This document shows positions 561 to 29,434 of a stretch of 38,168 nucleotides of DNA, in pieces (the stretch's first letter is position 1; each line of letters begins with the position of its first letter). The notes beneath the pieces were generated by a model. The model was not told the DNA's origin. It was given only the letters and a program-made list of their open reading frames with translations, and made no database searches. A program made the position numbers and the translations under genes. The stretch is taken from contig JAQBYC010000036.1 of assembly GCA_027623205.1 (NCBI GenBank), positions 1-38,168 of the forward strand. The letters run 5' to 3'. This stretch comes from Pseudomonadota bacterium. Its GTDB lineage: Bacteria; Pseudomonadota; Alphaproteobacteria; GCA-2731375.

Positions 561-664
561 GAGCAGTTTTCAATTTATTGGAGGCGCGAAGGCAAAATAA
601 GTGATTGGTTCAACGGCTCTACCTATTAAAGGCGCCGGGCATATTTGGATCAAATGGGCTCTAG
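561..664 (+). repeat. Dispersed ~100-bp intergenic repeat, copy 1 (degenerate)
   Basis: This segment begins GAGCAGTTTTCAATT, contains TGATTGGTTCAA, GGCTCTA and ATTAAAGG, and ends GGGCTCTAG, in the same order as the better copies at 2209, 27109 and 35821. It is clearly more diverged, and its terminal hairpin has decayed. The last bases, CTAG at 661-664, overlap the gcrA stop codon (TAG on the minus strand, 661-663), as in copy 2 with the DadA-like gene. Alignment was by eye. Confidence 0.65.
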
Positions 665-1077
665 GCTGAGCGTTTGCGATTGGCGTTTTTGGCTTTTGGC
701 GGCTGGTAGGCCATGGCTGCATGGTAGTCGCAATATGGCGCACCTACCTTGCTGTTCGCACCGCAAAAATGAAAACCCAGGTCACCGGGGTCGCCAATCG
801 GCCAGCGGCAGGTTGACGCCGTCAATGAAAATATGGTTGCGCCCTGATCTATCGGAGGTTGCAATTGCAAGACCTTCTCGGCGCGTTCTATTTGCCGCTG
901 CTGCCGCGTCACCGACGATTTCGACGGTTTGGAAAGGCCCAACCGGTTGGCTTTGCCGATCACGGCGTTTCGGGTGATCCCTTCATCCAAACGCTCCGCA
1001 ATTTGCCGGGCGGAATAGCCTTCCTGCCAAAGTCTCGATAGTTGTGTAACACGTTCGTCTGTCCAGTCTACGGCCAT
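661..1077 (-). CDS. gcrA: GcrA cell cycle regulator
   Basis: GcrA is an alphaproteobacterial transcription factor that binds sigma70-RNA polymerase and acts at promoters carrying CcrM-methylated GANTC sites. The N-terminus WTDERVTQLSRLWQEGYSARQIAERL, followed by ITRNAVIGKANRLGLS, is the conserved helix-turn-helix domain. The C-terminus carries CRWPIGDP, FHFCG and PYCDYH, the cysteine/histidine-rich end typical of the family. The length (138 aa) is slightly short of the usual range. I chose the ATG at 1077 because it gives the family-like start MAVDWTDERV and has a G-rich site (GGGGGCG) just upstream. The ATG at 1101 would place that site inside the gene. The stop codon lies in the end of repeat copy 1. 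The upstream region carries a DnaA-box array. Confidence 0.93.
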   Translation of the reverse strand: MAVDWTDERVTQLSRLWQEGYSARQIAERLDEGITRNAVIGKANRLGLSKPSKSSVTRQQRQIERAEKVLQLQPPIDQGATIFSLTASTCRWPIGDPGDLGFHFCGANSKVGAPYCDYHAAMAYQPPKAKNANRKRSA

Positions 1078-1158
1078 GTCACGCCCCCACAGCAAATTCA
1101 ACTGTTGTCGTTTTACCGAGGTCTATTGTAGCGATGCTTGGCGGTCAAAACAATATAT

Positions 1159-2208: not shown

Positions 2209-2313
2209 GGAGCAATTTTCAGTTAATTGAGGTCGCGCTCGTGACTTAAGTAATTGGTTCAATTGCTCTAATCTTTAAGGAGTCCGAGCATGTTTTTGGG
2301 AAACATGCTCTAG
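2209..2313 (+). repeat. Dispersed ~100-bp intergenic repeat, copy 2
   Basis: This is a well-preserved copy. The first module (2210-2269) runs from GAGCAATTTTCAGTTAATT to TAATTGGTTCAATTGCTC, bounded by the inverted repeat GAGCAATT/AATTGCTC. The second module is a perfect 10-bp hairpin, GAGCATGTTT at 2286-2295 with AAACATGCTC at 2301-2310 and a 5-nt loop. The terminal CTAG (2310-2313) provides the TAG stop of the DadA-like gene. The other side is read as the false N-terminus of the hydrolase. A GAGTC (GANTC, the CcrM methylation motif) lies at 2280-2284. Confidence 0.85.
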
Positions 2314-3581
2314 AAGCGGTCCGCACGAAAAGGTGTCGGATCAATTGCAGTGGGACGATCCTGCACCAGGTCGGCGATCAGGCGCCCGGTAACAGCGCCG
2401 AGAGACAGTCCTAAGTGACCATGACCAAAGGCAAAAAATACATGAGGGAAACGGCTGGAACGACCGATCACGGGTAGTGAATCGGGCATGGATGGCCGAT
2501 GCCCCATCCAGCGTTCCGCACCGGCATCTTTCAGGCCGGGAAACAGCCGCTTGGCATTTATCAGCAAGGCATCCGCACGGGCATAGTTGGGCGGCGCCGT
2601 CAAACCACCGAATTCTACGGTGCCGGCCAGCCGCAGCCCCTCGTTCATGGGGGTAATGCCAAAACCTAGCGAGCTGATCAGCATGGGTACCCGCACCTCT
2701 ATCTCCGGCGTGGGCAGCATCACGTGGTAACCCCGCTCGGTGTCCAAAGGAACCGCGTTGCCCAGGGCCTTGGCTAGCGGTTTCGAAAAGGCCCCCGCCG
2801 CGATCACCAGATCCTCGACCGGAAAATCACCCTGATCCGTATGCACATGCGTGGGGCCGCTCTCGCCGACGGCAAAGCCGGTCGCCTTGGCGCGCACGAA
2901 GGTACCGCCATCCGCCACGATCCGGGCCGCTAGAAGTTGTGACAGGGCGAGGGGTGAGGTAGCGTGGCCCGATTGCGTGGCCAGCGCGCCGCCCGCCATG
3001 TCAGGGCCAATCGCCGGCACCAGTTGGCGAATTTCATCGGGGCCCAATATCTCCAACGCGACGCCTCGGCGCGTGCGGGTGGCGTTGTCGGACTTGGCCG
3101 CGGCGGCATCGGCCGCGTTGGGATAAATATATAAGCAGCCCTGTTGGCGGATCGGCACCTGATCCCTGGGGACGTCGTCCAGCAGCTCGTTATAATGCCG
3201 CAGGCCGGGCAGCACGATGGTCGCTAGCGCCTGGGAAATTTCTTCGACTCGCCGGGGCGTGGTGTTCGCCATGAACCGCAGCATCCAAGGCGTCAGCTGC
3301 GGGAGATAGCTGAGCCGGATGGTCAACGGCCCCAACGGGTCCAACAGCATGCCGGGTACCCGCTTCCATAAACCGGGCTTGCCCTCGGGCAGGACCGAGC
3401 CGGTGGCGAAGATGCCCGCGTTACCGTACGAGGTTCCGCGTCCCGCTTCGTCCGGATCTATCACCGAGACCGAACAGCCGCGCCGCTGCAAGGTACGGGC
3501 GCAACAAAGGCCAACGATGCCCGCCCCGATCACTGTAACATTGCGCCGATCCCGTTCCTGAGCCAGCTGTTGATCGGTCAT
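2310..3581 (-). CDS. DadA-like FAD-dependent D-amino-acid dehydrogenase/oxidase
   Basis: The 423-residue protein has the DAO-family layout. A dinucleotide-binding motif (VTVIGAGIVGL) with an acidic strand end (VIDPDE) is at residues 15-45, GTSYGNAG is typical of DadA, and the C-terminus carries HRPSMPDSLPVIG and FGHGHLGLSLGAVTGRLIADL. It would oxidise a D- or secondary amino acid to the imino acid, passing electrons to the membrane or to oxygen. The substrate cannot be predicted. The ATG is 9 nt after the stop of the secreted-protein gene, so it is probably the last gene of the RND/rhodanese operon. Its TAG stop is the end of repeat copy 2. Confidence 0.85.
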   Translation of the reverse strand: MTDQQLAQERDRRNVTVIGAGIVGLCCARTLQRRGCSVSVIDPDEAGRGTSYGNAGIFATGSVLPEGKPGLWKRVPGMLLDPLGPLTIRLSYLPQLTPWMLRFMANTTPRRVEEISQALATIVLPGLRHYNELLDDVPRDQVPIRQQGCLYIYPNAADAAAAKSDNATRTRRGVALEILGPDEIRQLVPAIGPDMAGGALATQSGHATSPLALSQLLAARIVADGGTFVRAKATGFAVGESGPTHVHTDQGDFPVEDLVIAAGAFSKPLAKALGNAVPLDTERGYHVMLPTPEIEVRVPMLISSLGFGITPMNEGLRLAGTVEFGGLTAPPNYARADALLINAKRLFPGLKDAGAERWMGHRPSMPDSLPVIGRSSRFPHVFFAFGHGHLGLSLGAVTGRLIADLVQDRPTAIDPTPFRADRF

Positions 3582-3590
3582 GTCCGTTGC

Positions 3591-3977
3591 CTAGTTGGTG
3601 GAAGTGGATGAACTGGTCGATGTCGAAGTGGAGGTCGACGTTGACGTTGACGTCGCCGTTGTCGTGGTGGTGCTGACCGAACTGACGGAACCGTCAGCGC
3701 GGACTTGTAGCTCGTAGGTCAAGGCGTCGTTAGCCAGCGAAAGCGCCGCGGCCAGGCCGGCAAGGCCCACGGCGCCTTTGACCAATTGGCCGGCAGGGCC
3801 GTCCCAGTGCTTTTTGGCTTCCGTCTGCAACGCCTCAATCGATTGCATGGGACTGCCCGTGCCGGTCTGGGCGCCATTCTGGGATTGTGCAATAGCCGTT
3901 GACAAATAGGCCGGGGACAGACTTGCGAACACGGCAAATAGGACCAGACCGACAGCCATGCGGGCGATCGATCTCAT
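3591..3977 (-). CDS. Small secreted protein with Ser/Thr-rich C-terminal tail, 128 aa
   Basis: The N-terminus (MRSIARMAVGLVLFAVFASL...STAIAQ) is a signal peptide with likely cleavage after AIAQ near residue 31. A short middle region (MQSIEALQTEAKKHWDGPAGQLVKGAVGLAGLAAALSLANDAL) has an amphipathic then glycine/alanine-rich helix that may touch the membrane. The last ~27 residues are almost only Ser and Thr, largely alternating. The codons in this tail vary (TCA, TCG, TCC, AGT; ACG, ACC, ACT, ACA), which suggests the protein sequence is kept rather than recent DNA slippage. The ATG overlaps the rhodanese stop as ATGA, so the two are translationally coupled. I do not recognise the family; an exported accessory factor is an inference from context. 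Confidence 0.75.
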   Translation of the reverse strand: MRSIARMAVGLVLFAVFASLSPAYLSTAIAQSQNGAQTGTGSPMQSIEALQTEAKKHWDGPAGQLVKGAVGLAGLAAALSLANDALTYELQVRADGSVSSVSTTTTTATSTSTSTSTSTSTSSSTSTN

Positions 3978-5563
3978 GTAAACAGCCGAAAACGGTGATC
4001 GCCGTCCCGTTCGATATCCTGCAATAAATTCACTTCCCAGGTCAGATAGGCGCGCATGCGCGATTCCACGTCGCCGTCACTATCATAGGGTTTCAGCCAG
4101 ATATCGTCACGCTCATCCGCCAAATTCTCCAGGCCTTGAACTACCTTTTGCCCGGCTTGGGTCCAGGCCGCCGTGCCGCCGGTTAGGACGGCCACCGGCA
4201 TGGCCGTTAATTCGGAGGCCTCGGGCGCCGCCAAACGGGCGACAATGGCGTCCGGCGAAGTCAGAACCAGCAGCGATTTTTTGGCCAACTTCGGCAAACT
4301 GTCCGCCAGACGGGCCCGCACGGCCCACCAGGCGCCGGGCACATGGCCTTTGGCATAGTCCGGGCTGGGTGCCAGATCGACGACCAAGACATCGTCTGTC
4401 GTGATCCGGGCCGCCAATTCAGCGGGAGAGATTTCGTTCTTCCCAGCCTGCCCAATTTCCGCCGGTCCGCGACGGGGATTTTCCGTCGTCATTTCAAAAC
4501 CATCCAGGCCACCATCCAGGACCGCCACATCCCAGCCCATCTGCACCAGCCACGATGCGGTCATGGTGGCGCGCACACCGGTATCATCCACCAGTACGAC
4601 GCGGGCGCCCAGCGTCGCGCACCATGCCTCTATCCCCTGCACCAACTGCCCGCCGGGCGCATTGGCCACCCCCATCGGATGACCAGCGGCATATTCGGAC
4701 GGATCGCGCACATCCAGAATGTACAATGTGCGCCGCGTTGCCTCGGCCTGCCATTGGGCCAGGGTGGCACGGTCAATGATCGGCACCTGAAATCGTTTGG
4801 CCGCGGCCCCGGCGCTGATCCGGGCCTTGGCCAGCCCCTCGATGGAAGGTGATGGCGCCCTGCGGCTTTGTCCCCGTTCCAATTCATAACCCGCCAGATG
4901 CCAACCCATGGTGCCATTTTTCAGCGCCATCACCGGGTTCGGGATCGCCGCGTTGATTAATGACTGGGCGCCGATGATGCTGCGGGTGCGGCCGGCGCAA
5001 TTGACCACCACGGTCGTTTTGGGGTCGGGTGCCAAGTCGTGCACCCGATAGGCCAGTTCCGCGCCCGGACAATCAATGCCGTCTGGAATATTCATCAGTT
5101 GGAATTCATCCATGGGCCGGCTGTCTAGAATTACCAGGTCATCGCCCGCATCACGCATGGCCTGTAATTCTTCCGCATCAATGTGTGGCGTGCCGTAATG
5201 ATGCTCAATATATTCGCCAAACGCCTTGCAGGGCACATGGACACCGGAAAACAACACGAACCCGGCAGCCTCCCAGGCCGCAACGCCACCCTGAAGACAG
5301 GCCACGTCGGTATATCCCAGGTCAGCCAACTTGGCCGCGGCGCGATCCGCCAAGCCGCCGCCTGCGTCCACAAGGACGGTCCGGGTGCCCAGACGCGGCA
5401 CCAAGGATTCCGCCAGTAATTCCAGCACACTAAGGGGCATGGGCGCGGCGTAAAACAGATGAGATTGAGAATGCGCGCCTTCCTCACGGACGTCCAGCAG
5501 CGCCAGCTCGCCGCCGTCGCCGAGCATGGCCTTCAATTGGTCGGGCGTTACGTAGTTTGTCAT
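3974..5563 (-). CDS. Four-domain rhodanese-like sulfurtransferase, one active-site Cys
   Basis: The 529-residue protein contains four rhodanese-like domains at about 5-105, 125-225, 265-360 and 380-475. Each has the ALLDVR/ILDSR/ILDVRD/VVDLA strand and the GG-hatched GGVAAW/NGTMGW/GGLDGF/GGTAAW end. Only domain 2 has the loop cysteine (VVNCAGRTRS, Cys189). The others read VDAGGG, VDDTGV and LTSPDA and should be inactive or regulatory. It probably moves sulfane sulfur from a thiol donor. The ATG at 5563 has a strong GGGGAGCAGG site. The longer start at 5575 would bury that site. It begins 25 nt after the RND pump stop and overlaps the following secreted-protein gene by 4 nt. Confidence 0.9.
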   Translation of the reverse strand: MTNYVTPDQLKAMLGDGGELALLDVREEGAHSQSHLFYAAPMPLSVLELLAESLVPRLGTRTVLVDAGGGLADRAAAKLADLGYTDVACLQGGVAAWEAAGFVLFSGVHVPCKAFGEYIEHHYGTPHIDAEELQAMRDAGDDLVILDSRPMDEFQLMNIPDGIDCPGAELAYRVHDLAPDPKTTVVVNCAGRTRSIIGAQSLINAAIPNPVMALKNGTMGWHLAGYELERGQSRRAPSPSIEGLAKARISAGAAAKRFQVPIIDRATLAQWQAEATRRTLYILDVRDPSEYAAGHPMGVANAPGGQLVQGIEAWCATLGARVVLVDDTGVRATMTASWLVQMGWDVAVLDGGLDGFEMTTENPRRGPAEIGQAGKNEISPAELAARITTDDVLVVDLAPSPDYAKGHVPGAWWAVRARLADSLPKLAKKSLLVLTSPDAIVARLAAPEASELTAMPVAVLTGGTAAWTQAGQKVVQGLENLADERDDIWLKPYDSDGDVESRMRAYLTWEVNLLQDIERDGDHRFRLFT

Positions 5564-5588
5564 CCTGCTCCCCATCTGTGTTTCTTTG

Positions 5589-8500
5589 CTATTCCGCAGC
5601 TTGGGTGTTTGCGTCCGCGTCCAGATGCCGGCCCCGCTCCACCACCGCCGAAACCAGGCTCAACAGCGGCGGAATTATCAACAGGGTCAATACCGCCGAC
5701 AGGGATAACCCGCCCAATACCACCGAGCCCAGGCCACGATACAATTCCGAACCGGCACCCGGAAAAACAACCAGCGGCAGCATACCGAAAACAGAGGTTA
5801 AAGTGGACATGAAGATTGGCCGAATGCGGTTCCGCACAGCCTCGATAATAGCCTCCTCCGCGTGCATCCCTCTAGCGCGCACAAGAAACAGAGTTTGATG
5901 TACAATCAAAATGGCGTTGTTGACCACGATACCAATCAAAATGACAAAGCCCAGCATGGTCAACATATCCAAGGACTGGAAGCTGAACACATTCAACAGC
6001 GCCAGGCCGAGTACACCGCCCGCCGTGGCCAGTGGCACGGAAAACAAAATGATCAGGGGATAGAGAAAACTTTCAAACAATACCGCCATGACCAGATAGA
6101 CGATCACCACGGCGACGGCGAGGTCAACCACCAGATGATCCCAGGCGGCGGTCAGCTTGTCCGCGGTGCCGGACAAGCGCAGTTTTACAGCCGGCGGCAG
6201 GCCCTGCCTGCTCAACGGGCCGATTACGTCGCTTTGCAGGATTTCCATGGCTGCTTCCAGCGGCAGATCAGCTCTGGGCTTGACCTCCAGGGTCACCGTG
6301 CGTTCCCGCTCAACATGCAGGATTTCGGTCGGTCCCGCCGTTATCGTGACATCCGCCAGGGAGGCAACTGGTAAAATGGCACCCGATCGGGTCACGACGG
6401 GTAGGCTGCCGATACCCTGAGTGGTCGTAATCTGGCCGTCGGGACCCGCCAGCATCAGATCGATGCGGCGGCCGTCAACGGTTACTTCCGCGACCCGCAG
6501 ACCATCGTTGAAAGCGTCCACGGTCAGGCCCAGTTCCAACGCCGTAACGCCGTTGTCCGCCAGCAGCAATGGATTTGGCACCACCCGAATTTCCGGCGCG
6601 CCCAGTTCCAAACCCGGTTTTGGCCGCAATTGGTTTCCCTGTGTTCGGGGCAAAGCGCCGCCAATCAGGCGTGCGGCCTGCCGCGCCACCTCCAGCACCA
6701 CCTCCAGGTCCGGGCCCGAGACGTTCAAATTTATGCTACGCCCACCACCAATGCCACGGCCAAACAACGAACGTTGAGAGATGAAGCCATAGGTTCCCGG
6801 TTCTTTGAAGATCGGCGCCTGCAATACCGGGATTAGTTCGCCCACCCGATCGGGATCGACCGCAGAGGCGCCGACAATGGTCCGGGCCCTGAGTGATACA
6901 AAAAAGAAATTCTCGATTTTCGGCGGTTTGCCCGGTTCCGCCACCGGACCGGTTTCCGAGGCCCATAAGGGCCGGACGGCCTTTTCCAAACCTTCCGCGA
7001 TGGCGGTGGTGGTATCAAGGTTGTAGCCGGGCGGTGGCTGGATTACGCCAAAGATCAAGTTGCGGTTGCCGGTCGGCAGATAATCAAGCTTGGGCAGAAA
7101 GGCCCAGGTCGCGATGGCGCCGGCGCCACTCAACAGGACAACCACCGTTACGGCAAGAGAACGGTTCCGCACAATCCGGTGGGTGAAATACATGACCCCC
7201 CGGCTGAAAGCGCTGGCGGCGGCATCAAATACGGGCAGACGAAGGGGCGCGTGCAGGCTTTTTGTATTTTCGCTCAACAGGCGCCGGGACAAGGCCGGGA
7301 CCACGGTCACCGATACCAAAAGAGACAATAAGACCGAGACGGAAATTGCCACGGCGATATCGCGGAACAACTGGCCCACTTCCAATTTCATCACCAGCAG
7401 GGGCAAAAATACCAGAACCGTGGTCAGGGCGGATACCAGGATAGCGCCCCATACTTCCTGGGCGCCCAAAAAGGCCGCCATCTTTGGCGCCGTGCCCGCC
7501 TGTCGGTGGCGGTAAATATTTTCCAGCACCACGATTGCCGCGTCGACCACCATACCGACCGAAAAGGCGATGCCGGCCAGCGAAATCACATTCAGGGACC
7601 GGCCCAGCGCGGCCATGGCAACGAACGCGCCAACCACGGATACCGGAATGGCCAGCGAGATCACAAGCGTGGCGCGGACCGAACGCAGGAACAGCAATAG
7701 CACGATGGCAGCCAACAAACCGCCAACGACGATATTGTTCTGCACCAGATTTATGGCTGAATTGATGTACACAGTCTCGTCATAGACCTGATGTATGGTC
7801 AAGCCGATAGCCGGCAGGGTGACCTCGGCCAACTCGCGGACTGCCGCATGAATACCAGCCATCACCTCAATGACGTTGGCGCCGGCGTCACGAATGGTGT
7901 TGACCGCCAAGGTCGGGTTGCCCAAGCTACGAATATAAGCCGTCGGTGATTTGTGGGAAAATTCGACGTTGGCGATATCACCTATGGTGACCCGGCCAAT
8001 GCGGCCCGTAGCGCCATTCCCTTCGGAACGCACCAGCACGGCGGCAACTTGTTCGGTTGAAGTGAATCCGCCCTCGGTGCGCACCACATAGCGGCGTTTG
8101 CCCTCGACGACGTCGCCCCCCGACATGGAAGTATTGGCTTCCTTCAGGGCCTGCACGACCCGTGGCACGGTCAGACCATAACGGGCCAGCTTTTCCGGAT
8201 CGACAATAACCCGCAATTCCCGCTCGCTGCCGCCATAGACATTGACGCGGGAAACGCCCGGCACCCGCTCCAACCGATCGCGCACCAGATCGTCCACCTG
8301 ATCGCCGAAGGTATGGATCGGCCGGTCATTGCCCGGCAGGCGGCCGATGATGAACCAACCGATTGGATTATCGTCGGAACTGGAGGTGCTAATGGTGGGT
8401 TCATCCGCTTCGAGCGGATAACCCGTCACCCGGTCCAGCCGGTTGGCCACCAGCAGAAGCGCCCGATCCATATTCTGGGCAAGATCAAATTCGAGGCTGA

Positions 8501-8771
8501 TGCTGGCGCGGCCGTCTTCGGCCTGGCTGGTAATCTCGCTCACGCCCGGCAGCCCCTTGAGGGCTTCTTCCTGGCGGTTGATGATTTCCCGTTCGATCTC
8601 CGCCGGGGCGGCACCGTACCAGGTTGTTTGGATGTTCAGAACCGGGCGGCGGACATCCGGGGTCAATTGAATGGGAATAGTCTGCAAAGCCAGCAAACCG
8701 AACAACAGAATCATCAATACCGCCGCCACCACGGCGATGGGGCGTTCGATGGATACACGGATCAGGTTCAT
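5589..8771 (-). CDS. RND-family efflux permease (AcrB/HAE-like inner membrane pump)
   Basis: This is a proton-driven inner-membrane pump of 1,060 residues, the normal length for the family. The N-terminus MNLIRVSIERPIAVVAAVLM is the first membrane helix, and porter-domain signatures such as GVSEITSQ and RVNVYGG follow. The TM4 segment GMVVDAAIVVLENIYR has one Asp where AcrB has Asp-Asp. The C-terminal half repeats the fold (VVNNAILIVHQ, MSTLTSVFGMLPLVVFPGAGSELYRGLG). With the adaptor gene upstream it should form a tripartite exporter. No outer-membrane TolC-like gene is in the window. Substrates are unknown. The start lies 67 nt after the adaptor stop. Confidence 0.93.
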   Translation of the reverse strand: MNLIRVSIERPIAVVAAVLMILLFGLLALQTIPIQLTPDVRRPVLNIQTTWYGAAPAEIEREIINRQEEALKGLPGVSEITSQAEDGRASISLEFDLAQNMDRALLLVANRLDRVTGYPLEADEPTISTSSSDDNPIGWFIIGRLPGNDRPIHTFGDQVDDLVRDRLERVPGVSRVNVYGGSERELRVIVDPEKLARYGLTVPRVVQALKEANTSMSGGDVVEGKRRYVVRTEGGFTSTEQVAAVLVRSEGNGATGRIGRVTIGDIANVEFSHKSPTAYIRSLGNPTLAVNTIRDAGANVIEVMAGIHAAVRELAEVTLPAIGLTIHQVYDETVYINSAINLVQNNIVVGGLLAAIVLLLFLRSVRATLVISLAIPVSVVGAFVAMAALGRSLNVISLAGIAFSVGMVVDAAIVVLENIYRHRQAGTAPKMAAFLGAQEVWGAILVSALTTVLVFLPLLVMKLEVGQLFRDIAVAISVSVLLSLLVSVTVVPALSRRLLSENTKSLHAPLRLPVFDAAASAFSRGVMYFTHRIVRNRSLAVTVVVLLSGAGAIATWAFLPKLDYLPTGNRNLIFGVIQPPPGYNLDTTTAIAEGLEKAVRPLWASETGPVAEPGKPPKIENFFFVSLRARTIVGASAVDPDRVGELIPVLQAPIFKEPGTYGFISQRSLFGRGIGGGRSINLNVSGPDLEVVLEVARQAARLIGGALPRTQGNQLRPKPGLELGAPEIRVVPNPLLLADNGVTALELGLTVDAFNDGLRVAEVTVDGRRIDLMLAGPDGQITTTQGIGSLPVVTRSGAILPVASLADVTITAGPTEILHVERERTVTLEVKPRADLPLEAAMEILQSDVIGPLSRQGLPPAVKLRLSGTADKLTAAWDHLVVDLAVAVVIVYLVMAVLFESFLYPLIILFSVPLATAGGVLGLALLNVFSFQSLDMLTMLGFVILIGIVVNNAILIVHQTLFLVRARGMHAEEAIIEAVRNRIRPIFMSTLTSVFGMLPLVVFPGAGSELYRGLGSVVLGGLSLSAVLTLLIIPPLLSLVSAVVERGRHLDADANTQAAE

Positions 8772-8838
8772 GCGTCATCCCCAACAGGGCTATCATGCAC
8801 GACGCGATGCTGCATGATGCGGCTGGGAATGGCAACGC

Positions 8839-10005
8839 TCAAAAGCGCACAGGCTGTCCGGGAAACAGCCGCTCATTGCCACGTATGACCACCACCTCGC
8901 CCACTTGCAAACCTTTCCGCACCACAAACCGTCCCCCCACCCCTTCGCCGATCGCGATATCGCGTGCCTGGACCGCGCCCTCCACGACCACGAATACCAT
9001 ATCATTGCCGTTGCGCTTTAGAATTGCATCTTTGTGGACGGAAACGACTTTTTCCCCGGCATTGAGGGGGATGGCCACCGTGACGCTCTGATTGCTGGCC
9101 AAACGGCCCAGCAGGGCGGCTATATCGGCGGTAAAGCGGACCGCTCTGGTCCTGGTCAGGGGATTTTCCTGGGGCACCACGGCGCGGACCTTGGCCGCGA
9201 TGGTTTGATTGTTGGTCCGAACCGTGACTTCCGCGCCTGGCAATAATCCCGCCAGCCGATTAGCCGGCACTTCGGCCTCCACTTCCAGGGCACTATCGTC
9301 GATCATTGTGACGACCGGCTGCCCAACACTTAAATATGCGCCAACATCTGTATGGCGCTGGGTGACAACGCCCGAAAATGGCGCTCTGACGGTGGCGTAA
9401 CCAAGGTCGATCTCCGCCAGATGGGCGTCGGCGTCGGCCTGTAGCAATCGCGCGGAGGCTTCGGTAACCTGGCTGTTCAAGATTGCCACCTCTTGACGCA
9501 TGTCATCAAACTTGGAGGCGCGGTGGGCGGCCGACTTGTTCTTTCGCAGTTGTTCCAAGCGCTCCATTTCCATATTTTTCATCATCAGTTCCGCCTTGCG
9601 GCCGGCCAACTGGGCCCTGCGAGACGTCACCTCGGCAGCCCGCCGCTCACGCACCCAATGCAATTGCTCGCGCACAAGTACTGCCAGCACTTCGCCTTTT
9701 TTCATTCGATCACCCACGTCGGCCCGCATCTCGCCTACCGGGCCACCGACCCTCGCGGCCACGACGCCGGATTGCCGGGCCACCAGGCGTCCAATTACAG
9801 GAAAGGTTTGCAGGACATTTTCCGAGCGCACTTCGTCGACACCAACCAGGGCCGCGTTCCCGGCCGCTTTCGCCTCCGTCTTCTGGGGCGTTGTCTTCTG
9901 CGCCAAGCCTGGAGCGCCAGGGAGCAGCAGAGAGCATGTCACGATCACGACCGGAAAAAAGCCAACCGGGTACCGGCTCAAGCGGATGAATTGATGCGGT
10001 TTCAT
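8839..10005 (-). CDS. RND periplasmic adaptor (membrane fusion protein)
   Basis: This is the periplasmic adaptor linking the RND pump to an outer-membrane channel. An N-terminal signal or anchor (FFPVVIVTCSLLLPGAPGLAQ) is followed by a lipoyl-type half (GEMRADVGDRMKKGEVLAVL), a coiled-coil hairpin (about residues 105-190) and the second lipoyl half (LGYATVRAPFSGVVTQRHTDVGAYLSVGQPV). Beta-barrel and membrane-proximal domains end in RGNERLFPGQPVRF. I use the ATG at 10005 (388 aa); a GTG at 10020 is equally open. Neither has a clear ribosome binding site. It is probably the first gene of a five-gene operon running to 2310. Confidence 0.9.
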   Translation of the reverse strand: MKPHQFIRLSRYPVGFFPVVIVTCSLLLPGAPGLAQKTTPQKTEAKAAGNAALVGVDEVRSENVLQTFPVIGRLVARQSGVVAARVGGPVGEMRADVGDRMKKGEVLAVLVREQLHWVRERRAAEVTSRRAQLAGRKAELMMKNMEMERLEQLRKNKSAAHRASKFDDMRQEVAILNSQVTEASARLLQADADAHLAEIDLGYATVRAPFSGVVTQRHTDVGAYLSVGQPVVTMIDDSALEVEAEVPANRLAGLLPGAEVTVRTNNQTIAAKVRAVVPQENPLTRTRAVRFTADIAALLGRLASNQSVTVAIPLNAGEKVVSVHKDAILKRNGNDMVFVVVEGAVQARDIAIGEGVGGRFVVRKGLQVGEVVVIRGNERLFPGQPVRF

Positions 10006-10101
10006 GAATTCAGCAAACACTTCAATTGAGGATTAGGCCGCAAGGTCGCACCGTGAGTGGGGCTATTCAAGCTATCATAATTTAGCAGTTTGGATTGCGG
10101 C

Positions 10102-10126: not shown

Positions 10127-11944
10127 TCATTTAACCCGTTCAGTCGGAAAATGCAGGGTCGCGCGGGTTCCCGCGCCCAATTCCGATTTCAGTTCCAGGC
10201 TGCCGTCATGCATTTCCGCGAATGCCGTGGTGATAGCCAAGCCGAGACCCAGACCGCCATGCCGGCGGCTTGGTGCATCGTTGAGCTGGGCAAAGGATAA
10301 CCGAGCCCGCTCCAGTTCCCCTTCATCCATGCCAATACCGTTATCACGCACGAACAGGTCCAAACCGTCACCGAGCTCAAATTTGACACCGATTTCTACC
10401 TCGCCGCCGTTATCAGTGAATTTGATCGCATTCGTCAACAGATTCAGCAGCATTTGTTTGATTTTGGTTTGATCGCCGATCAGTTCGGGCAAATGGCGCG
10501 GCAGACTTTCCTTCATCACCAAACCTTTGGTGGCGGCCTGCTGGGCGATCATGGCAATGGATGATCGAATACATTCTTCCAGATCCACGATGCCTTCCGC
10601 CAATGCCACGTCGCCGGTTTCAATTCGTGACATATCCAGAATGTCGTTGATGACCACCAGCAGCTCACGGCCCGAACTGTTGATGGAATGTAAAAAATCA
10701 CGACTGTCTTCGCCTGAAAATTGACCGTCACCGTGGTTGCTCAACAACTCGGAAAAGCCGATGATGGTATTCAACGGCGTGCGCAATTCATGGCTGACAA
10801 TGGCCAGAAACTGGGTCTTGGCGCGGTTCGCGATTTCCGCTGCATCCTTGGCCTGGGACATTTCCACTTCCGCCCGTTTTCGGGCGGTAATATCGGACAC
10901 CGAACCGGCAATGCGGTAGGCATGACCGGTGGAATCGCGCAAAGCCAGGGCCCGGTCAGCGATCCAGCGCAGTTCACCGTTCATATGAATGACCCGGTAT
11001 TCCATATTGAACACTTGGCTGTCGCCGTCTAAATGTTCCTGCCAGTGTTGGTGATAGCTGTGCTGATCATCGGGATGGATCACGGCTATCCAGTCTCCCC
11101 GCCGGAAACCGGCAGCTTCGCATTGCGCGCCAATAAGGGATAGCACCCGGGGCGAAATATAAAAGCGGCCGGTACGCATGTCCATGTCCCACAGGCCCTC
11201 GTTCGAGGCCAAGGAGACCAGGGCATAGCGTTCCTGGCTATCGCGCAAGTCCCGCTCCCTGGTTTTCAAGGTTGTGACATCGCGGACCAGGGTCAGGGTG
11301 CCGCCGCCATCGCACAGAGAATCCACAAACTCATAGTCGCGGCCGTCGATTTCACGCTGTTCGCCGATATCACCAATCCAATGGTGTTGCCGACGCTTTT
11401 CTAACCAGATAGACGCGGCGGCAGTGGGGATATAGGCCGCGTCAAGTTCCGCAATCAACAAATCGTCGAAATGCGCGCCGGGGCGCAGATCGCTCTCAAT
11501 ACGGGAAAAGATGCGGCGATAGGCTTGGTTGCACAGGACCAATCGATCATCCTCATCCCACAGGGCGATGCCTTCGGGCAAATGATCCACCATTGCATGA
11601 AACAACTTGGCCCTTGGTGCGACTTCCGCCGCAATCGCGGATGCCGCCATATGCAGAATTGCCCGGCGCATGGCCAAGGCGGAGGTTGCGGAGAGCGCTA
11701 GCCCGATCACGGCAAATGAGATCAATACTGGCGAGGACATTGAAAAACCCGAGATCGGATGGACCGCGGTTGTTATCAGTGCCGTAAGCCCGCCCACGAG
11801 GACAAAGATCAGCAAAGCCACGATTGATGCAAAGGTAGCTGCGCGATCGGGCGTCGTCCCGAGATGATCCAATTTGAAAGCGTGGCCTACAGCGATGCTG
11901 GGTTGTCCATCGCCGGAGTCATGCCGTATTGCCATGCTCGCCAT
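10127..11944 (-). CDS. Membrane-bound PAS sensor histidine kinase
   Basis: The order of domains is two N-terminal membrane helices ([20 protein letters not shown] and [20 protein letters not shown]), a PAS domain ([19 protein letters not shown]), a second PAS/PAC unit ([19 protein letters not shown] to [16 protein letters not shown]) and a HisKA dimerisation domain. The phospho-acceptor is SHELRTPLN, His385. An HATPase domain follows with [12 protein letters not shown] and GGLGLGLAI. There is no receiver domain and no adjacent response regulator, so it is an orphan kinase. I chose the ATG at 11944 because GAGGA precedes it by about 9 nt; an ATG at 11980 is also open. Divergent from the YedK-like gene. 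The signal and target are unknown. Confidence 0.88.
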
Positions 11945-12122
11945 ATACAATCGTCCTCGACACGCGGGGCGGTCGTCCATCAATGCAGACGCACTGAAAT
12001 CCTCAAAAAATGTTCATCCTTGCGGGGGTCTTTGTGACAAAATAAAGCGAATAAACTGCTAACGGTTATTAACAATGCGCTATAACCGACGGGCCTTATT
12101 GTGATTGTGTTAAACTTTAAAC

Positions 12123-12824
12123 ATGTGCGGCCGTTATAGCTTGACCTCGCCCGAAGACGCCATGCGCCTGTTGTTTGATCTACCGGCAGGGGTTACCGGC
12201 GCTTGGGCACAACCGCGCTTCAATATTGCGCCGAGCCAAACCGCGCCAGTGGTGCGCTGCGGCGCTGATGGCCTAGGGCAGGAACTGGTGGGCATGACCT
12301 GGGGCTTGATCCCTGGTTGGAGCCAGGGTCCAGGCAGCCGCGGCGCGGGTCAAATCAATGCGCGCAGCGAAACAGCGATGGAAAAGCCGACCTTTCGCGC
12401 GGCCTGCCGTCTGCGCCGCTGTCTGGTACCCAGCGACGGGTTCTATGAGTGGCAAAAAATCGAGGGCGGCAAACAGCCCTACTGGATCAGCCGGATCGAT
12501 GGCGCGCCCTTTGCCTTCGCGGGGCTGTGGGAAACCTGGTCGGCCGGCCAGGCGGGGGAAATCGTCAGTTTTGCAATTCTGACGACGGCGGCGGCGCCAG
12601 CGTTGCGTTCGATCCATCACCGCATGCCGGTGATCATGCGGGAAAAAGATTACGCTGCCTGGCTGAACCCGGACCGCACCCCGCCGCCGGAATTGTTCGC
12701 GCCGGAGCAGGCGCCGCGCATGCAGGCCCACCCCGTATCACACCGGGTCAACAGTCCGCGCAACGATGATGCCGGCTGCCTGCAAGCCGCCCCTAAAACA
12801 CCGATCCAAGGCCGTCTGTTTTGA
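12123..12824 (+). CDS. YedK/HMCES-type (SRAP) abasic-site crosslinking protein
   Basis: SRAP proteins trap abasic sites in single-stranded DNA through a thiazolidine bond to their Cys2, protecting them during replication. Here the start MCGRYS leaves Cys2 at the N-terminus after Met removal. The other conserved residues are visible as Asn79 (QINARSET), Glu109 (GFYEW) and His165 (SIHHRMPV). The length, 233 aa, is normal. Because Cys2 must be N-terminal, the ATG at 12123 is fixed. It has no Shine-Dalgarno sequence, only AT-rich DNA (TTAAACTTTAAAC), so a leaderless transcript is possible. Convergent with the MFS gene, with a single base between the stop codons. Confidence 0.93.
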   Translation: MCGRYSLTSPEDAMRLLFDLPAGVTGAWAQPRFNIAPSQTAPVVRCGADGLGQELVGMTWGLIPGWSQGPGSRGAGQINARSETAMEKPTFRAACRLRRCLVPSDGFYEWQKIEGGKQPYWISRIDGAPFAFAGLWETWSAGQAGEIVSFAILTTAAAPALRSIHHRMPVIMREKDYAAWLNPDRTPPPELFAPEQAPRMQAHPVSHRVNSPRNDDAGCLQAAPKTPIQGRLF

Positions 12825-24642: not shown

Positions 24643-25470
24643 ATGATCTTGAGCAATATCCGCGTGAAACCATTGACGGCGGCCATCGGGGCCGAGGTGG
24701 AGGGTGTTAGCCTGGCCGAACCGTTAAGTGATGCCACCTTTACCGCCTTGCACGATGCCTTGATGGATCATCAGGTAATTTTCTTTCGTGACCAGGAGAT
24801 GACCCTGGAACAGCACAAGGATTTCGGCCGCCGCTTTGGCGACTTGCATGTGCATCCGGCGGCGCCGGGTCCGAAAGGGCATCCTGAAATTCTGGTCATC
24901 CATGCAGACGAGAAATCCAAGCATGTCGCGGGTGAGGGCTGGCACACGGACGTCAGTTGCGATGTGGAACCCCCCATGGGCAGCATCCTGCACATCCACA
25001 CCGCGCCCGAGGTTGGCGGCGATACCCTGTTCTCCAACATGTACGCGGCCTATGAATCCCTGTCGGACAGGATGCAGCAATTTCTTGATGGCCTGACCGC
25101 CATGCATCGCTCGGAACATGTACACAAGGGCCGCTACGGCCTGAAGGAAAAATTGCGCGATGACGACTATCCGGAAGCCATTCACCCGGTCGTGCGCACC
25201 CATCCGGTGACCGGGCGCAAGGGGCTTTACGTCAATGCCTCGTTCACCACAAGAATTATGGAGTTAAGCAAGGCGGAAAGTCACGATATTCTGCAAATGC
25301 TGTGCAACCACATTGCCCGCGGCGTGCAATTCCAGTGCCGCTACCGCTGGGAGAACAATTCTGTGGCGTTTTGGGACAACCGATGTGTCCAGCATCATGC
25401 GGCCTGGGACTATTACCCCAACGTCCGCCACGGCTACCGTGTCACCATCCAAGGTGACCGGCCGGTTTAG
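24643..25470 (+). CDS. TauD/TfdA-family Fe(II)/2-oxoglutarate dioxygenase
   Basis: The 275-residue protein belongs to the TauD/TfdA family, which hydroxylates small organic acids such as taurine and releases sulfite in the taurine case. The iron facial triad is visible as His101 and Asp103 (WHTDVS) and a distal His251 (NRCVQHHAAWDYYPN). The 2-oxoglutarate-binding Arg is in HGYRVTIQGDRP (Arg266). GGDTLFSNMYAAYESL is typical of the family. The ATG at 24643 has GGGGACG about 5 nt upstream. Substrate specificity cannot be read from motifs. Convergent with the acyl-CoA ligase gene, with a 7-nt gap. Confidence 0.9.
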   Translation: MILSNIRVKPLTAAIGAEVEGVSLAEPLSDATFTALHDALMDHQVIFFRDQEMTLEQHKDFGRRFGDLHVHPAAPGPKGHPEILVIHADEKSKHVAGEGWHTDVSCDVEPPMGSILHIHTAPEVGGDTLFSNMYAAYESLSDRMQQFLDGLTAMHRSEHVHKGRYGLKEKLRDDDYPEAIHPVVRTHPVTGRKGLYVNASFTTRIMELSKAESHDILQMLCNHIARGVQFQCRYRWENNSVAFWDNRCVQHHAAWDYYPNVRHGYRVTIQGDRPV

Positions 25471-27108: not shown

Positions 27109-27210
27109 AGAGCAATTTTCAATTAAACGGAGCAATTCTCGCGACTTAAGTAATTGGTTCAATTGCTCTATCCTTAAAGAGCCTGAGCATGTTTCAAGGC
27201 AACATGCTCT
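27109..27210 (+). repeat. Dispersed ~100-bp intergenic repeat, copy 3
   Basis: The copy has AGAGCAATT at 27109-27117 and its perfect inverted partner AATTGCTCT at 27161-27169, with an internal CTTAAGTAATTGGTT. The second module is the hairpin GAGCATGTT (27185-27193) and AACATGCTC (27201-27209). The minus-strand parC gene ends inside it, so the final residues SMLP and the TGA stop (27194-27196) are repeat-encoded. On the other side it gives the false TTG start of the ligase. Confidence 0.85.
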
Positions 27211-29434
27211 CGCCGAATGAATGGTTTTTGGGGAAGCCTTTCGGGGCCAACCTGCCGGATTGGCCGCGTTTGCCGCGCCACATCTCCAGGTCCAGTTCGG
27301 TACGCGTGCGCCCGCCGGCCTGGCGCCAGGTCAGGCCGTCGGCCAAATTCATGGTCTTGACGTCGCCCAGGCCGCCATCACGGTAGCGTTGCAGCACCAC
27401 GCCGCGGCCACGGTTCATTTCCGGCAGCTCGGACAAGGGGAATAGCAACAATTTGTGGTTCTCTCCAACCACGGCCAGATGGTCACCTGCCACGGCGGCG
27501 CAAACAGCCGCTTCTACGTCACCCGAGACGTTGAGAACCTGACGGCCGCCGCGGGTTTGCGCCACGATGTCCTTTTCCGCCACGATGAAGCCCCGGCCAT
27601 CGCTGGCCGCGACAACCAGTTTGCGTGCTGGATCATGCACCATGACGGTAATGATGTCCTGATCGTTGGCCATGTCCAGCAACAGGCGAACCGGCTCCCC
27701 ATTGCCCCGGCCAGCCGGCAGTTTGTCACAGGTCAGGGTGTAGAACCGGCCGTTGGTGGCGAACAGAACCAGCTTGTCCGTGCTTTGCGCATGCAGCCAG
27801 AAACGGCCTTTGTCACCGTCCTTGTAATGTACGTCGTGGCCTTCCTCGACATGACCACGCAGGGCGCGCAGCCAGCCTTTGTCGGAACAGACCACGGTAA
27901 TCGGCTCGCGCTCCACCATGGACTCAATGGGCATCAGTTCGCCGGTCGGGGCGCCGGCGAAGGTGCTGCGGCGCGGTCCCAGGGCCGGATCGTCGCCGAA
28001 GATCCGGCGCATCTCGCGAATCTCCTCTGAGATCGCGGCCCAGCGGCCGCTTTCGGAGGCCAGCAACGCGTTCAGGTCCCCTCGTTCCACCTGCAGGGCT
28101 TTGTCTTCCGCCCGGATTTCCATCTCTTCCAGGCGGCGCAGGGCGCGCAGGCGCATGTTCAGGATTGCTTCGGCCTGGGCATCGTTGAGGCCAAAGGCGC
28201 TCATCAGGGCCGGTTTAACTTCATCCTCTTCGCGAATGATCCGGATCACTTCATCCAGGTTCAAATAACAGATCAGGTAGGCGCCCAACACTTCCAGACG
28301 CCGTTCGATCTGCCCCAGACGGTGTTCGGAGCGGCGGACCAGGACCACATGACGGTGATCCAGAAAGGCCTGCAAGGCTTCCCGCAGATTCATTACTTTC
28401 GGCGTCTGGTCCGCGTCCAGGACGTTCAGGTTTAAACCGATGCGCACTTCCAGGTCGGACAGGCGGAATAAATGCTCCATCAGCATTCCGGCCTCAACCC
28501 GGCCCGATTTCGGCTCCAACACCAGGCGGATATCCTCGGCGGATTCATCGCGAATATCCGCCAACAAGGGCAGCTTGCGCAAGTGCATCAGCTCGGCGAT
28601 TTTCTCGATTACCCGGCCCTTGGAGACCTGATAAGGGATCTCGGTGACCACGATGTTGTAGGTACCGCGCTTGCCTGGCTCCACCTCCCATCTGGCGCGC
28701 AGGCGAAAACCGCCACGCCCGGTTTTATAGGCCTCTAATATGGCGGCCGGGTCTTCGACGATAATCCCGCCCGTGGGAAAGTCGGGGCCGGGGACTATTT
28801 GCACCAGCTTGTCCAAGCCGGCATTGGGAAATTTGATCAGGTGCAGCAGGGCGGCGCATAATTCGCGGATGTTGTGCGGCGGGATAGAGGTCGCCATGCC
28901 AACCGCGATGCCAGTGGCGCCATTGGCCAACAGGTTGGGAAAGGCCGCCGGCAGCACCTGGGGTTCCTCGTCCTCGCCATCGTAGGTGCCGCGGAAATCC
29001 ACCGTGTCCAGGTCAATGCCCTGCAGCAGGGCCTGGGCCACGGCGGTCATGCGGGCTTCCGTATAGCGCATGGCGGCGGCGTTATCGCCGTCCACGTTGC
29101 CGAAATTGCCCTGCCCATCGACCAGGGGATAGCGCTGGGCGAACTCCTGGGCCAGACGGACCAGTGCGTCATAAATCGCCTGATCGCCATGGGGATGAAA
29201 CTTGCCCATGACATCGCCGACGATGCGGGCGCATTTTTTGAAGCCCGTCTCCGGGTTCAGCTTCAATTGCCGCATGGCGAAAAGAATGCGCCGATGCACC
29301 GGCTTCAGGCCATCGCGCACATCCGGTAGCGACCGGGACATGATGGTGGATAGGGCATAGGAGAGGTAGCGTTCGCCAAGGGCCTCACTGAGGGGCGTGT
29401 CGCGGATTTCACCGCCGTCGAGAATCTCTATCAT
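27194..29434 (-). CDS. parC: DNA topoisomerase IV subunit A
   Basis: ParC is the breakage-reunion subunit that unlinks daughter chromosomes with ParE. The 746-residue protein has [33 protein letters not shown], the fluoroquinolone-determining segment [26 protein letters not shown], and the active-site Tyr in [11 protein letters not shown]. The C-terminal half is the shorter beta-pinwheel of ParC rather than GyrA. The residue at the E. coli ParC Ser80 position appears to be Gln, which I recall in related alphaproteobacterial ParC proteins. The start overlaps the end of recO by 26 nt. The stop lies in repeat copy 3. Confidence 0.95.

Follow-up and report, generated by a model that had tools for sequence, protein, structure and literature searches.

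The window analysed here is a stretch of 38,168 nucleotides (nt) of contig JAQBYC010000036.1 (assembly GCA_027623205.1), which comes from an alphaproteobacterium of the GTDB group GCA-2731375. Its minus strand carries a row of five genes that code, in the order of transcription, for the adaptor and the inner-membrane pump of a resistance-nodulation-division (RND) exporter, a four-domain rhodanese, a small secreted protein and a DadA-like oxidase. The adaptor, a periplasmic membrane fusion protein (positions 8839–10020, or up to 10005 with the ATG chosen in an earlier note on this DNA), matches RND_mfp (TIGR01730) with 180.4 bits against a cutoff of 94.9, as well as HlyD_3 and HlyD_D23. The pump (5589–8771) is encoded in tandem with the adaptor and is of a divergent hydrophobe/amphiphile efflux (HAE-1) type (ACR_tran, 1.4e-199). 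The rhodanese (3974–5575) contains four stretches that match Pfam Rhodanese, the secreted protein (3591–3977) has a signal-peptide-like N-terminus, and the oxidase (2310–3581), a flavin adenine dinucleotide (FAD)-dependent amino-acid dehydrogenase/oxidase, belongs to the DAO family (9.9e-65). The assignments of the exporter, the rhodanese and the oxidase made in the earlier note were confirmed by Pfam and NCBIfam, and all five open reading frames (ORFs) were found, tightly spaced on one strand, where it had placed them.

The genes of the row are separated by 67, 13, −4 and 9 nt. The second spacing had been given as 25 nt, a value that is obtained only when the rhodanese is taken to start at its internal Met5; the other three were as claimed. 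The five-gene description overlooked two genes of the same strand. One codes for an α/β-hydrolase similar to YheT (1246–2262; Abhydrolase_1, 2.8e-18; PRK10985), whose longest ORF begins 47 nt 3′ of the oxidase gene in the window and which overlaps or nearly abuts that gene in relatives. It is probably the last gene of the transcription unit to which the pump, rhodanese and oxidase genes belong. The other, located 106 nt upstream of the adaptor gene, codes for a PAS-domain histidine kinase (10127–11983; HisKA, HATPase_c and PAS), and its membership in the unit is uncertain. Promoter and terminator scans of the window returned no more sites than did shuffled sequence and thus do not mark out the ends of the transcription unit. 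An Rfam search of the window gave zero matches.

We compared the locus with 15 genomes of the same order, among them 10 relatives of the same genus and three genomes (G012, G013 and G014) that represent other genera of the family. The lineage genomes are metagenome-assembled, as are the nearest named relatives (Rhodospirillaceae/Alphaproteobacteria), and neighbouring genes in GC-rich loci were called by simple ORF picking. As far as contigs reach, the succession of adaptor, pump, rhodanese, secreted protein, oxidase, hydrolase and GcrA genes is kept in all 10 genus relatives and in G012, and the same genomes retain the kinase gene, a major facilitator superfamily transporter gene and a FAD-linked-oxidase gene upstream of the row. 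The GcrA-type regulator gene (661–1101, minus strand; Pfam GcrA, 3e-37), which closes the conserved block at its downstream end, occupies the same position in genus members, in G012 and in G014. Since the whole region is syntenic in the genus, flanks included, the position of the pump is by itself little evidence. Conserved spacing is stronger evidence. In the 12 genomes made up of the window genome, its 10 genus relatives and G012, the rhodanese stop and the secreted-protein start invariably overlap by exactly 4 nt; the gap between the secreted-protein and oxidase genes is 9 nt in eight of these genomes and 6–30 nt in the others; and the gap between the pump and rhodanese genes never exceeds a few tens of nt in the genus. 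Co-transcription of the five genes, which had been considered likely, is thus a prediction well supported by spacings conserved across as many as 12 genomes.

Within this lineage, the row is a genuine and stable arrangement of genes. The question raised in the earlier note, whether the genes are scattered in relatives, has a divided answer: they remain neighbours in genus members and G012, but elsewhere they are scattered or absent, with adjacency of the oxidase and rhodanese genes seen only within the family. Among the genomes searched, the five-part combination was confined to this narrow lineage, and it did not appear in the literature searched. Every part of it except the secreted orphan is of a known kind.

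The rhodanese matches PDB entry 1yt8 over its full length (residues 14–530, 3.6e-140) and, being of this four-domain type, has a single active-site cysteine, C193, which lies in the loop CAGRTRS of domain 2 and is invariant in all 146 aligned homologues. In the window protein, the catalytic cysteine is absent from the corresponding positions of domains 1, 3 and 4. The active loop of mercaptopyruvate sulfurtransferases reads CG[S/T]GVT; the window loop does not conform to this motif, and a route from D-cysteine to mercaptopyruvate is therefore weakened. Residue 116 of the rhodanese is a cysteine in 11 of 12 sequences from the lineage, against a serine in >93% of other homologues, and Cys116 may provide a second thiol close to the linker between domains 1 and 2.

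Of 386 alphaproteobacterial genomes sampled, 79 contain homologues of the rhodanese (E ≤ 1e-60), and homologues also occur in beta- and other proteobacterial records; those borne on plasmids are all <60% identical. At 85 of the 129 evaluable non-redundant rhodanese loci outside the genus, the gene directly upstream on the same strand codes for a cupin that resembles mercaptosuccinate dioxygenase (Msdo). The best solved match of this cupin is the mercaptosuccinate dioxygenase 8vni (4.6e-34), and the structures of cysteine and 3-mercaptopropionate dioxygenases match it more weakly. The Pfam model CDO_I (PF05995) missed these cupins (it had matches in only 2 of the 15 genomes of the order), and protein searches were therefore used. 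No gene for a dioxygenase resembling Msdo or 3-mercaptopropionate dioxygenase (3MDO) adjoins the rhodanese gene in the window, and no Msdo-like cupin gene does so in any of the 11 relatives from the genus and G012. A distant thiol-dioxygenase-like cupin (8vni, 9.2e-5) is encoded on contig C109 of the window genome, beside a LysR-type gene (L187:54–617, plus strand).

Several rhodanese loci carry a cystathionine-β-lyase-like gene downstream. In Advenella and Variovorax, the mercaptosuccinate dioxygenase gene is clustered with rhodanese and cystathionine β-lyase genes (PMC5373536), and in Pseudomonas protegens the PA2603 homologue apparently forms a unit with the 3-mercaptopropionate dioxygenase gene, 3mdo (PMC12947264). 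At loci L091, L099, L103 and L120, an Msdo-like gene, a four-domain rhodanese gene and two acyl-CoA-dehydrogenase-like genes stand in a row, an arrangement that recalls the degradation of 3-mercaptopropionate by way of the Acd desulfinase. An established role for the four-domain rhodanese that accompanies thiol dioxygenases was not found in the literature searched, despite its solved relative. A rhodanese that is kept without an adjacent dioxygenase, together with a pump and an oxidase, provides an independent genetic context for asking what this role is.

The best subfamily match of the oxidase is PRK00711 (DadA), with 179.9 bits against a curated cutoff of 383; PRK12409 gives 119 against 494. 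Among solved structures, glycine oxidases come nearest to it. The oxidase gene adjoins the rhodanese gene only in the window genus, G012, G013 and G014, that is, in four genera of the family. The arrangement is rhodanese–oxidase in G013 and cupin–rhodanese–oxidase–gcrA in G014. The latter suggests, from few genomes, that the cupin gene was lost in the branch of the window, a gain in G014 being possible too. The earlier note had proposed a sulfur-containing or D-amino-acid-derived substrate for the system. A sulfur or amino-acid compound is plausible, and the sulfur side is strengthened by the thiol dioxygenase that usually accompanies the rhodanese; the D-amino-acid side is held back by an oxidase score below the DadA cutoff. 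Around oxidase homologues, three scanned neighbours were parC-like (the window has its parC at 27194–29434), and ORFs of 748–754 codons lie near homologues that are 44–47% identical (L297, L300 and L313).

The closest solved structures of the pump are MdtB and AcrB-type pumps. It scores 577 bits against RND_permease_2, whose cutoff is 1250, and is divergent from the named multidrug subfamilies. Homologues (E ≤ 1e-180) are present in 82 of the 386 genomes, in dozens of other Alphaproteobacteria, and are mostly 44–69% identical; a scan of viral contigs for the pump gave no match. An RND gene located upstream of the cupin–rhodanese–oxidase genes of G014 was considered as the same pump and rejected, as it is only about 30% identical. 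It had been remarked that an outer-membrane channel gene is missing. None is present in the cluster, but this is not a meaningful absence and poses no puzzle: one TolC-type OEP gene, with two domains, is located outside the cluster on contig C220 of the window genome, and its product may serve the pump.

The secreted protein has, in addition to its signal-peptide-like N-terminus, a short hydrophobic stretch rich in glycine and alanine and a Ser/Thr-rich C-terminal tail that ends in STN. Searches against Pfam and NCBIfam placed it in no family; weak Pfam matches to a silk protein and a sporozoite antigen were set aside as due to the Ser/Thr tail. Its family occurs only in the 12 genomes, in one copy each and always at this locus. 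Since the ORF is intact in all 12 genomes, has a ratio of nonsynonymous to synonymous polymorphism (pN/pS) of 0.47 and varies most at the third codon position, it looks like a true gene. A single-sequence structure prediction was mostly helical, at a low-confidence mean local score (pLDDT) of 58.7.

We tentatively favour, at somewhat short of an even chance, the view that a locus for thiol or sulfane-sulfur catabolism forms the core of the row, an operon specific to this lineage, and that this locus lost its dioxygenase and acquired an exporter and a secreted protein. It is best called a variant of the dioxygenase–rhodanese gene pairs in which the dioxygenase is gone and an exporter stands in front. 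In its favour stand the pairing of cupin and rhodanese genes at 85 of 129 other loci and in the published clusters, the arrangements in G013 and G014, the lack of the cupin gene beside the rhodanese gene in the lineage, the invariant Cys193, the tight spacing from the rhodanese gene to the oxidase gene and the TolC-type gene of the genome. The system would handle a thiol, a persulfide or a sulfur compound derived from an amino acid. The oxidase would yield a 2-oxo acid by deaminating an amino acid; the rhodanese would take up sulfane sulfur, donated by thiosulfate, a persulfide or perhaps mercaptopyruvate, in the form of a Cys193 persulfide and hand it to an acceptor; the pump would expel a toxic or unused organic product through the TolC-type channel of the genome; and the secreted protein, whose translation would be coupled to that of the rhodanese, may act in the envelope. 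Thus, a small thiol that relatives would oxidise by the dioxygenase would in this lineage undergo deamination, desulfuration and/or export. If true, this ties an RND pump to metabolism rather than to drug resistance. A more specific version, a dedicated detoxification-and-export machine that replaced thiol dioxygenation, in which an amino-acid thiol is turned into a sulfane-sulfur or keto-acid product expelled by the pump and the orphan protein accepts sulfur in the envelope or assists the pump, is improbable.

Several observations weigh against the favoured reading. In a sample of 20 loci (L274–L293), the surroundings of pump homologues often included a histone-deacetylase-like gene (12 of the 38 scanned neighbours) or a polyprenyl synthetase gene (6 of 38) rather than sulfur genes. 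When the Pfam families around oxidase homologues elsewhere were tallied (simple ORF picking lost the anchor gene in six loci), neither a consistent partner nor consistent sulfur genes emerged. An adjacent dioxygenase is also lacking at 40 of the 129 other rhodanese loci, and its absence here is therefore not unique; the only cupins elsewhere in the window genome are distant ones, among them the dioxygenase-like cupin of contig C109, which is unlinked to the cluster. The rhodanese loop described above counts on the same side, as does the result that deletion of tst in P. protegens had no significant effect on 3-mercaptopropionate (PMC12947264). Synteny is weak evidence, the kinase, hydrolase and gcrA flanks being as conserved as the row itself, and the pump may stand where it does for no functional reason.

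This last point leads to the strongest rival, a fortuitous neighbourhood, in which a general alphaproteobacterial RND pump that exports toxic compounds at large was inserted in front of an unrelated rhodanese–oxidase unit and is carried along as a passenger with no biochemical link to it. We regard it as quite possible, though with clearly less than an even chance. Elsewhere than in the genus and G012, 29 genomes had matches to both the pump and the rhodanese, and in each of them the two are on separate contigs or >200 kb from one another; in G012 itself, a gene for an iron-containing alcohol dehydrogenase (L053:10868–12034, minus strand) stands between the two genes. Against this rival speak the linkage kept in G012, whose rhodanese is only 73% identical, and the narrow pump–rhodanese gap held throughout the genus.

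An envelope-stress unit, in which the kinase, pump, secreted protein and hydrolase would maintain envelope homeostasis and the rhodanese would be confined to thiol redox repair, is unlikely. The conserved same-strand kinase and hydrolase genes on the two sides of the row and the presumed coupling of the secreted-protein gene to the rhodanese gene are consistent with it, but in G013 and G014 the rhodanese–oxidase pair stands without adjoining orthologues of the kinase, pump, hydrolase and secreted-protein genes. About equally unlikely is a D-cysteine route, in which the DadA-like enzyme would convert D-cysteine to 3-mercaptopyruvate, the rhodanese would desulfurate the latter to pyruvate and the pump would remove excess thiol, as the loop CAGRTRS is not of the mercaptopyruvate type and the oxidase falls below the DadA cutoff, nearest to glycine oxidases, although the oxidase–rhodanese pair is conserved in four genera and a parallel pathway, the formation of H2S from D-cysteine by D-amino acid oxidase and 3-mercaptopyruvate sulfurtransferase (3MST), is described for mammals (PMC3712494).

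Two further genes of the window may be mentioned. A gene of the SRAP family (HMCES/YedK type; 12123–12824) lies upstream of the kinase gene on the opposite strand, and a TauD-family dioxygenase gene (24643–25470), another possibly sulfur-related gene, is located about 15 kb from the cluster.

Among known systems, the Msdo/3MDO–rhodanese pairs (the mercaptosuccinate cluster of Variovorax and Advenella and the PA2602–PA2603 type of Pseudomonas) share with the window a four-domain, single-cysteine, 1yt8-like rhodanese whose gene stands, as in an operon, in a row with that of a second enzyme for small organic molecules; the window cluster differs in having no thiol dioxygenase and in having an RND pump, an orphan secreted protein and a DadA-like oxidase. 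As in AcrAB among the tripartite HAE-1 systems (MdtABC, AcrAB-TolC), an adaptor and a pump are present with no dedicated outer-membrane gene, but in the window the order of the genes ties the pump to metabolic enzymes. The oxidase shares the DAO family and PRK00711 (D-amino acid dehydrogenase) as best curated match with the FAD-dependent amino-acid oxidases of the DadA and glycine-oxidase types, although it scores far under the curated cutoff and its cluster has no racemase gene. Finally, the pairing of a FAD-dependent amino-acid oxidase with a sulfurtransferase recalls the mammalian D-amino-acid-oxidase/3MST pathway by analogy only; the sulfurtransferase of the window is of another type with another loop.

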